Origin: a virus
DNA length: 20,845 nucleotides
Direction: 5' to 3' (one strand)
Virus record (IMG/VR): IMGVR_UViG_3300042294_001447
Location: 1-20,845 of that record
In this document: positions 6,753 to 8,091 of the stretch, one piece after another
Position numbering within the stretch: position 1 is the first letter of the stretch
How the letters are laid out: each line of letters begins with the position of its first letter
The notes under the pieces: model-generated
Seen by the model: only the letters and a program-made list of their open reading frames with translations
What the model was told of the DNA's origin: nothing
Database searches by the model: none
Position numbers and translations under genes: made by a program

Positions 6753-6789
6753 TATAATATATACGGACCGCCTAACGGGGTCCGTATAT
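6753..6789 (+). promoter_or_regulatory. hsp20 promoter with CIRCE-like inverted repeat
   Basis: An extended -10 element (TGA then TATAAT at 6753-6758) is followed at once by a perfect 11-bp inverted repeat: ATATACGGACC (6759-6769), a 9-nt spacer, and GGTCCGTATAT (6779-6789). The predicted transcription start (about 6765) lies inside the left arm, so only part of the repeat is in the RNA; this favours a DNA operator over a pure RNA hairpin. The long-arm/N9/long-arm layout resembles the CIRCE operator of HrcA, although the sequence differs. A second short repeat, ATATCAA (6721-6727) and TTGATAT (6749-6755), flanks the -35 region. Confidence 0.75.
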
Positions 6790-6817: not shown

Positions 6818-7288
6818 ATGGTAAGTAGTTTCACACTGGATCTATTCAAAGATCCATTTTTTATTGGTTGGGATCGCCACTTCAAGGATCTCGAAAAGGT
6901 AATGCATAATTCAACAAATTATCCACCATATAATTTAGTAAAATTAAATGATGATGATTATATTATTGAGCTTGCATTAGCTGGTTTTAAAAAAGAGGAT
7001 GTTCAGGTAGAACAAGAAAAAAATGTTCTGACCATTAAAGGATCAACTTCTGAATCAGATCCAAAAGATTATATCCATAAAGGAATTGGTGGTAGATCTT
7101 TTACAAGAACCTTTTCATTATCAGACTATATGGAGGTATCTGGAGTATCAATGTCTGATGGGGTATTAAAAGTGCTAATTGTACGAAATGTCCCAGAGGA
7201 AGCAAAACCAAAAACATTTGATATTGTTGATGCCTTAGAGCCACAAAAAGTAATTGCGGCTCCTTCTACCAAGAAAACAAAAAAATAG
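6818..7288 (+). CDS. Small heat-shock protein, Hsp20/alpha-crystallin type
   Basis: A 156-residue small heat-shock protein, an ATP-independent holdase that keeps unfolding proteins soluble. The alpha-crystallin domain spans about residues 37-130: YPPYNLVKLNDDDYIIELALAGFKKEDVQVEQEKNVLTIKG, then RSFTRTFSLSDYMEVSGVSMSDGVLKVLI. This last block is the typical 'GVL.V' end strand. The C-terminal tail is Lys-rich and lacks a clear I-x-I motif. A strong AAAGGAGG at 6804-6811 lies 6 nt from the ATG. Phage-encoded Hsp20 is also known in cyanophages and pelagiphages. The promoter carries a large inverted repeat, so stress-type or phage-repressor control is plausible. Confidence 0.93.
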   Translation: MVSSFTLDLFKDPFFIGWDRHFKDLEKVMHNSTNYPPYNLVKLNDDDYIIELALAGFKKEDVQVEQEKNVLTIKGSTSESDPKDYIHKGIGGRSFTRTFSLSDYMEVSGVSMSDGVLKVLIVRNVPEEAKPKTFDIVDALEPQKVIAAPSTKKTKK

Positions 7289-7429
7289 TATAATAGAAAT
7301 CTGCACCCCTTCATCGGGGAGTCGCAGATAGGGCATCGCTGCCCAGGATAGTCGGGGGAGACAGCGACTTTAAATAACTGAATGGACCTGAGCATGTCTA
7401 TAAAAGGCTCTTTTAATTTAAGGAGCAAT
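7289..7429 (+). ncRNA. GC-rich structured leader RNA of the nuclease gene
   Basis: A -10 box (TATAAT, 7289-7294) predicts transcription from about 7300, exactly where structure begins. Helices: ATCTGC (7299-7304) with GCAGAT (7324-7329), enclosing CCCC/GGGG (7306-7309 with 7316-7319); hairpin GGGCA/TGCCC (7331-7335 with 7340-7344, loop TCGC); AGTCG/CGACT (7350-7354 with 7365-7369). An alternative pairing, AGTCGC (7320-7325) with GCGACT (7364-7369), excludes the first helix. Downstream, GCTCTTT (7407-7413) can pair with AAGGAGC (7420-7426), hiding the Shine-Dalgarno. GC is 44 of 69 bases over 7301-7369, against 33-37% in sampled flanking coding stretches. This looks like a riboswitch-like or other cis-regulatory element; it matches no class I can name. 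Confidence 0.65.
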
Positions 7430-7837
7430 GTGTTTGAATATAGAATTAAGCAGGTAATAAAAGTAGTAGACGGAGACACCATAGATGTAGATATTGATCT
7501 TGGATTTAGCATTTCATATTCTCAAAGATTAAGATTAGCAGGAATAGATACTCCAGAGTCAAGAACAACAGATAAACTTGAAAAAACTTTAGGTCTAGAA
7601 TCTAAAGAGTATCTTAAGTACAAATTTAAAGATGCTAAAAAAATTGTTGTAAAAACAGAAAAGCCAGATAGTTCAGAAAAATATGGACGCATTTTGGGAT
7701 GGATCTACCTTGACGGAAATGATAAATCTATTAATGAACAAATGATTGAAGATGGCTATGCCTGGTCATATATGGGTGAGACTAAAGTTAAAGACTTTGT
7801 AGCTTTAGCAGACAGAAGAAAGAGAAGCGGCAAGTAA
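7430..7837 (+). CDS. Staphylococcal-nuclease-like (thermonuclease) protein
   Basis: A calcium-dependent nuclease of the SNase fold, 135 residues from GTG 7430. KVVDGDTIDVDID (11-23) supplies metal-binding Asp residues, LRLAGIDTPES (34-44) contains R35, D40 and E43, and KYGRILGWIYLD (84-95) contains R87, all equivalent to the catalytic residues of staphylococcal nuclease. No signal peptide is present, so it should act inside the cell, probably in nucleic-acid turnover. GTG 7430 is preferred because AAGGAG lies at 7420-7425 and the fold starts there. An in-frame ATG at 7382 would add 16 residues unrelated to the fold. The Shine-Dalgarno is predicted to be sequestered by the leader. Confidence 0.88.
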   Translation: MFEYRIKQVIKVVDGDTIDVDIDLGFSISYSQRLRLAGIDTPESRTTDKLEKTLGLESKEYLKYKFKDAKKIVVKTEKPDSSEKYGRILGWIYLDGNDKSINEQMIEDGYAWSYMGETKVKDFVALADRRKRSGK

Positions 7838-8022: not shown

Positions 8023-8077
8023 AAATAATTTAAGTAATTATTTGTGTTATAATTTCAATGTAACAAAAGTTTTGTTA
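8023..8077 (+). promoter_or_regulatory. Promoter with two palindromes before the large secreted protein
   Basis: Extended -10 TGTTATAAT ends at 8053; no clear -35 is present. AAATAATT (8023-8030) with AATTATTT (8036-8043) forms an inverted repeat over the -35 position. TAACAAAA-G-TTTTGTTA (8061-8077) is a near-continuous 17-bp palindrome centred at 8069, just past the predicted start of transcription. Both look like protein-binding sites. In RNA the second could form only a short hairpin, located just ahead of the GGAG at 8082-8085. Confidence 0.6.
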
Positions 8078-8091
8078 TATTGGAGATCCAA

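Follow-up and report, generated by a model that had tools for sequence, protein, structure and literature searches.

The interval between the hsp20 gene of this freshwater phage and the gene that follows it, which encodes a Staphylococcal-nuclease-like (SNase) protein, raises the question of whether it holds a switch for the nuclease or an RNA of more general use. The whole stretch of DNA analysed (the window) is an IMG/VR virus record of 20,845 bases (IMGVR_UViG_3300042294_001447), in which a zinc-ribbon gene is also present downstream, besides the SNase-like one. The initial annotation had described the interval as a GC-rich leader with a promoter box and three hairpins, able to adopt two mutually exclusive folds and to hide the Shine-Dalgarno sequence of the nuclease gene, i.e., with the layout of a riboswitch or other translation switch of no recognised class. 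We have compared the interval (Table 1) with its relatives in viral contigs and in bacterial genomes. Its terminal pseudoknot recurs in hundreds of unrelated viral sequences and matches no catalogued RNA family, which suggests a new phage RNA element of general use and not a nuclease switch.

Table 1. Features of the hsp20-SNase interval and its surroundings (positions in the window).
Feature	Position	Strand	Basis or remark
-10 box and 5'-terminal hairpin of hsp20 transcript	6753..6785	+	hairpin directly past TATAAT
hsp20 gene (upstream)	6818..7288	+	PF00011, E 2.8e-16
-10 promoter box TATAAT of leader transcript	7289..7294	+	sequence; putative promoter function
Module a: 5'-terminal hairpin, loop NUCAYN, AGUC bulge	7299..7329	+	64 distinct copies
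Module b: hairpin GGGC-AUCGCU-GCCC, then AGGAU	7331..7349	+	optional, sequence variants in relatives
Module c: hairpin AGUCG-GGGGAGACAG-CGACU	7350..7369	+	covariation; optional
AU-rich linker UUAAAUAACUGAA, module c to pseudoknot	7370..7382	+	conserved motif in c-bearing relatives (see text)
H-type pseudoknot	7383..7410	+	covarying stems in two sets of distinct copies (54; 298)
GCTCTTTTAATTTAAGGAGC, possible Shine-Dalgarno-masking hairpin, competing with stem 2 for 7407-7410	7407..7426	+	present here; not enriched in relatives
SNase-like gene (downstream), GTG start	7430..7837	+	PF00565, E 7e-17

A modular leader behind a promoter box

The TATAAT is where it had been placed, overlapping the hsp20 stop region (AAATAGTATAAT, 7283-7294), and a -10 box lies upstream of module a in 107 of 107 distinct relatives, with a spacing identical to that of the window in 101 of them; the predicted transcription start is therefore more than chance. 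The transcript would begin at ca. 7301, with the interval as its 5' part, and module a, which is optional in the relatives, starts at about this expected point. Where module c comes first, it occupies the same promoter-proximal place. The GC peak is equally real, with G or C at 44 of the 69 positions of 7301-7369, a value matched by only 2 of the 20,776 69-nt windows in the contig. All three of the proposed hairpins (that of module b spanning 7331-7344) are present in the predicted minimum-energy fold, and the fold of 7298-7376 has -29.0 kcal/mol, where shuffled sequences average -21.6 ± 2.7 (z -2.7).

The earlier proposal of a structured RNA is borne out by the relatives, in which covarying pairs are found and the element is conserved and linked to a promoter. 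Among the 64 distinct copies of module a the inner stem pairs vary from C-G to U-A or U-G, and the module is missing altogether from a few loci (L167, L169, L029). The site of module b is filled in relatives by CGGGUCGCUACCCG-AAGGAU, GGGCUAAUAGUUACGCCUUAGGAU and others. The outer pair of module c covaries through A-U, U-A, G-C and C-G, with one CG-to-UA change in addition; its exact 20-mer was recovered from 62 stretches of IMG/VR, and a looser pattern from at least 120. For hairpin c together with the next stem, 93.1% of the cells in the aligned relatives are paired, with a covariation score of 0.271 against 0.109 when shuffled. The loop of c is highly conserved, its invariance and that of the linker CUG being partly imposed because the looser search patterns required both, and c-bearing relatives share a conserved YUAAAYAACUG in the linker, part of which was itself required by the scan that yielded many of the linker-bearing relatives. 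Of 160 loci fetched solely by their neighbouring proteins, most carry matches to the resulting model, all of them on the + strand. In these protein-fetched loci each of the hairpins a, b and c can be missing or exchanged for another, whereas the 3' part is common to the relatives, some loci consisting of the pseudoknot alone, a few bases past the hsp20 stop.

We also observed a second architecture, in which c is retained and the pseudoknot is replaced by a larger hairpin (L242, L245, L266, L271, L274, L276, and also L279, L280, L283, L315, L319). Here a long stem (GCCTCACGTAGG...CCTACGTGAGGC), whose interior (GGACCTTGGGATGGATTAGTTACC) is conserved, comes after hairpin c, and the stem covaries as judged by eye. 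What appears to be an independent, promoter-linked copy of this long stem, without hairpin c, is found in L497.

A pseudoknot found between many genes

The most conserved part of the leader is the 3' pseudoknot, which is absent from the initial annotation. In the window, stem 1 pairs UGGAC (7383-7387) with GUCUA (7396-7400) and stem 2 pairs GAGC (7390-7393) with GCUC (7407-7410), that is, four pairs where five are usual; loop 1 is CU and loop 3 is A-rich. The general pattern measures 27-30 nt and consists of at least three variable pairs closed by C-G, the loop CU, GRGCA/UGCYC and an A-rich third loop. Across 54 diverse copies 97.5% of the cells are paired, with a covariation of 0.502; shuffled controls reach 0.134, and slid ones no more than 0.095. 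In a set of 298 distinct copies, for which stem 1 was unconstrained except for the closing pair, pairs 2 and 3 of this stem are Watson-Crick in 100% and 98% of the cases, against expectations of 42% and 32%. A stem 2 pair is kept in 120 of 121 copies (G-C in 111, G-U in 8, C-G in 1, and one mismatch) in a test where the viral scan forced one changed stem 2 base and left its partner free. A descriptor search over the fetched loci (4.46 Mb), many of which had been obtained by motif patterns and were thus preselected, gave 591 matches, and in shuffled sequence it gave 1. Scans of IMG/VR with stem 1 unconstrained returned more than 120 stretches per pattern, from contigs of very different base composition. 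On the strength of this covariation we regard the structure as close to certain.

Leaving aside 79 of 312 pseudoknot copies that lie inside ORFs called by a simple gene finder and were excluded from the position counts, 204 of 215 intergenic copies lie 3' of a CDS on the same strand, with 5-7 nt after the stop codon as the commonest gap. The upstream genes are unrelated to one another (DUF932, hsp20, class II ribonucleotide reductase, major head protein, helicase, tail fibre assembly) and have an excess of TAA stops (66% vs 49%), as is the case in highly expressed genes. On the other side, pseudoknots precede genes, tRNAs or nothing: the gene that follows runs in the same direction in 120 of 133 cases, a tRNA gene comes next in 24 and an opposite-strand gene in 20 of the 215 intergenic copies (pattern-scan set), and a tRNA is directly downstream in 32 of the 312. 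The 9-10 nt past the pseudoknot are G-poor. At least seven T in the following 12 nt were found in 39 of 233 copies (17%) vs 3 of 233 in the control, a 13-fold difference, and most copies, the window included (CUUUUAAUUU), are without a clear U tract. A terminator-like hairpin within 90 nt downstream was present in only 6 of 229. There are also copies directly behind a promoter (L499, L500, L538).

Several further observations concern the surroundings of the pseudoknot. The commonest gene directly before it is DUF932 (31 of 136 in the pattern-scan set, e.g., L526:4278-5360), and such copies are often followed by a tRNA-Asp-like sequence. Some contigs carry multiple copies (L443, L466, L473, L505, L526), two of them 78 nt apart in L505. 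In L179 the element comes after a perfect TTGACA-18-TATAAT promoter and ahead of an adjoining phage tRNA cluster. We provisionally discount stop-codon read-through, given that stop type and spacer vary and that the stop of one copy overlaps stem 1. The 3' strand also bears some likeness to rrn boxA (TGCTCTTTAACA in L285), which we discount as well, as stem 2 becomes UGCCC in many copies.

The pseudoknot is also carried by isolated Lactobacillus and Anoxybacillus phages, and phage LL-H and a phage of Staphylococcus have variants of it. In several Firmicutes phages it is directly upstream of the capsid scaffold gene, which the isolate-phage copies adjoin in the annotated cases; four isolate or isolate-fragment records have none or one copy. 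Among cellular genomes, 15 of 398 from Bacillota had one pattern match each (none with the reversed pattern) and 0 of 398 from Pseudomonadota had any, figures that make a host housekeeping RNA unlikely. Most of the Bacillota copies inspected follow a short reading frame ending in cysteine. In L572-L577 and L580-L585 this frame is of the type MLRKRWMLRxVAHCKEGC*, with the pseudoknot directly past its stop and, in several cases, an apparent intrinsic terminator after it; the frame is possibly a modified-peptide precursor or a leader peptide.

Comparison with known RNAs

The initial annotation recognised no known class, and a search of the window against Rfam 15 agrees, with no match at the gathering cut-off; relaxing the threshold to E 10 added a single snoRNA match, on the other strand and due to chance. 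The relatives gave only tRNA and tmRNA, plus a glutamine-II match far from any reported pseudoknot copy. Throughout the scans of window, clade relatives and pseudoknot-only loci, the one other family to appear was a sub-threshold match to GP20-b (RF03003), a phage cis-regulatory candidate motif for which Rfam annotates a hairpin only. The match is that of the copy in Lactobacillus phage KC5a (20.5 bits, E 0.016; below the 36.2-bit cut-off), and GP20-b was found neither in the window (E up to 10) nor in four further scaffold-linked phages. By a hand reading of the consensus line, GP20-b (CCGCA/UGCGG, AAAA loop) allows the same H-type pseudoknot, which may supply a structural basis for this unexplained motif. 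The position of GP20-b, upstream of the GP20 scaffold gene, is shared by the Firmicutes phage copies only, whereas the window element precedes SNase and differs in its 5' modules and in stem 2. By score and by context it is not a member of GP20-b.

Three further RNAs were compared. The frameshift pseudoknots of luteoviruses (e.g., BWYV) have a two-nucleotide loop 1, a one-nucleotide loop 2 and a short A-rich loop 3. By this BWYV-type geometry the present pseudoknot would be similarly compact, but it lies past stop codons and not past slippery sites inside coding frames. HK022 put suppresses pausing or termination through the zinc-binding domain of the polymerase and is made of two stem-loops, whereas in the leader the modules vary in number and kind and a pseudoknot is added. 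As a phage RNA near a promoter, with ca. 70 nt of stacked stem-loops, put acts regardless of the downstream genes (PMC9378689). The leader of the window is likewise placed at a putative promoter, built of stacked stem-loops and indifferent to genes; however, no pseudoknot is described for put (PMC9378689) and the widespread core here comes after stop codons, mostly off promoters. An H-type pseudoknot is known from a phage mRNA leader in the T4-type gene 32 mRNA (PMC3014915). That one is bound by the product of its own gene, on a single mRNA, while the present one accompanies many unrelated genes, and a placement upstream of an ssDNA-binding protein gene was not seen here, the neighbours being hsp20 and SNase in the window and diverse elsewhere. 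We would consider put and the gene 32 pseudoknot functional analogues at most. Among open-licence papers we found no description of the element, so an earlier description is possible.

Possible roles of the element

Control of the nuclease, as first proposed, is not supported by what lies downstream. Among 144 distinct module-bearing copies the next gene is SNase in only 67, a zinc-ribbon gene in 31 and another gene in 25, with no gene within 90 nt in 21, and on this census we reject a nuclease-specific role. The sequence that could hide the Shine-Dalgarno does exist in the window, but across 65 distinct relatives such complementarity is no better than in shuffles (mean best pairing 3.88 vs 3.82), and the masking hairpin is probably not the conserved function. 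Similarly, both AGTCG copies invoked for the two exclusive folds are present, but the alternative pairing is not conserved: the outer base of hairpin c is Watson-Crick with its own partner in 75% and with the hairpin a copy in 41%, and c is often present without a. With downstream genes unrelated or absent and no riboswitch family matched, we consider a nuclease riboswitch, or any other translation switch that responds to a ligand or to temperature, very improbable. On its side are the end of the pseudoknot near the start codon in the phage group of the window (median 20 nt) and the bases common to stem 2 and the masking hairpin, by which a local switch is possible in this particular genome, as something other than the conserved feature.

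The simplest reading, because the element is independent of genes, lies past stop codons and between co-directional genes, and occurs at +1 behind promoters, is that of a cis-acting RNA boundary element that would protect or insulate transcript ends, and this is the one that we tentatively favour. The leader would be a stack of swappable hairpin modules followed by a widely shared phage pseudoknot, normally intergenic and immediately past a stop codon, which would act in cis as an RNA boundary whatever its neighbours, its compact fold blocking exonucleases or insulating the upstream message from downstream events. A U-rich stretch past the pseudoknot may sometimes help, maybe via partial termination, and the hairpin modules at +1 would shield the new 5' end. 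The covariation, the excess of descriptor matches over shuffled sequence, the position after stop codons, the gene independence and the excess of T-rich tails over the control are all consistent with such a boundary. Against it, plain protection needs no sequence conservation of the kind seen here (CCUGRGCA...AAACUGCYC; in module a the loop NUCAYN and the bulge AGUC, in module c the loop), which therefore indicates a specific partner, and a 3'-end role makes little sense for the copies directly behind a promoter.

These two points are those on which an antitermination or anti-pausing RNA like put would do better. The folded nascent leader would bind the polymerase, which would then pass downstream terminators regardless of the genes, and the location at a promoter, the ca. 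70-120 nt of stacked hairpins and the indifference to the following genes are as in HK022 put; the strong conservation suggests a specific partner here too, and several Bacillota loci have the pseudoknot shortly before an apparent intrinsic terminator. This explanation does worse on the stop-codon position, most pseudoknots being far from promoters, and on the scarcity of terminator-like hairpins downstream, and we hold it to be unlikely, if worth keeping in mind. Neither do we give much weight to the idea that pseudoknot and U-rich tail form a partial terminator or attenuator, promoter, modules and pseudoknot making up a stand-alone small RNA of ca. 110 nt in the window. It accounts for the subset of copies that are T-rich (17-19%, 9- to 13-fold over control) or followed by a promoter (among 139 module-bearing copies, 37 have a new -10 box within 45 nt past the pseudoknot), and the module-bearing copies without a gene nearby and the apparent tandem copies with separate promoters in L290 and L296 fit it as well. 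However, most copies have no real U tract, that of the window among them, and in 102 of the 139 a Shine-Dalgarno-like sequence lies within 30 nt downstream. A site recognised by an RNA-binding protein or nuclease of phage or host, i.e., a processing site or an autoregulatory operator, has its precedent in the gene 32 pseudoknot (PMC3014915) and would suit the invariant loop nucleotides, the G-poor single strand past the pseudoknot and the copies before tRNAs, which need processing. A single phage protein is unlikely as the partner because many unrelated genes, in phages of different hosts, carry the pseudoknot, and for a host protein wide conservation would be needed; we find this reading rather improbable.

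We put forward, with some reserve, an uncatalogued and gene-independent class of phage cis-RNA, in which one 27-nt pseudoknot, often in several copies per genome and in phages of different bacterial phyla, would be reused between genes, setting transcript boundaries or acting on RNA polymerase, and to which freshwater phages would add interchangeable, promoter-linked hairpin modules. Should the function be confirmed, a very small RNA fold reused between many genes of metagenomic phages would fill a general gap in the account of how phages express their genes. Conserved stretches between genes would be explained in many viral contigs and could be annotated with the fold as search motif, and builders of synthetic operons would gain a compact insulator or stabiliser. 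The idea lends itself to a direct test by compensatory mutants in a cultivated Lactobacillus phage such as KC5a, since stem 1 can vary freely and stem 2 covaries.

The role suggested for the 5' modules, which start at the promoter, agrees with what is seen on the hsp20 transcript, where a different covarying hairpin takes the same place. The arms of this hairpin (ACGGACC...GGTCCGT) vary yet stay complementary in the relatives, and it is followed by a conserved stretch (ATTAACTTATTCGCTTRAAGGAGG). As the hsp20 transcript has its own -10 box and a different hairpin, structured 5' ends would be general among these phages and not peculiar to the nuclease gene. At 8048-8075 of the window a further TATAAT comes before a hairpin (TAACAAAAGTTTTGTTA), upstream of a gene for 871 aa that starts at 8080.
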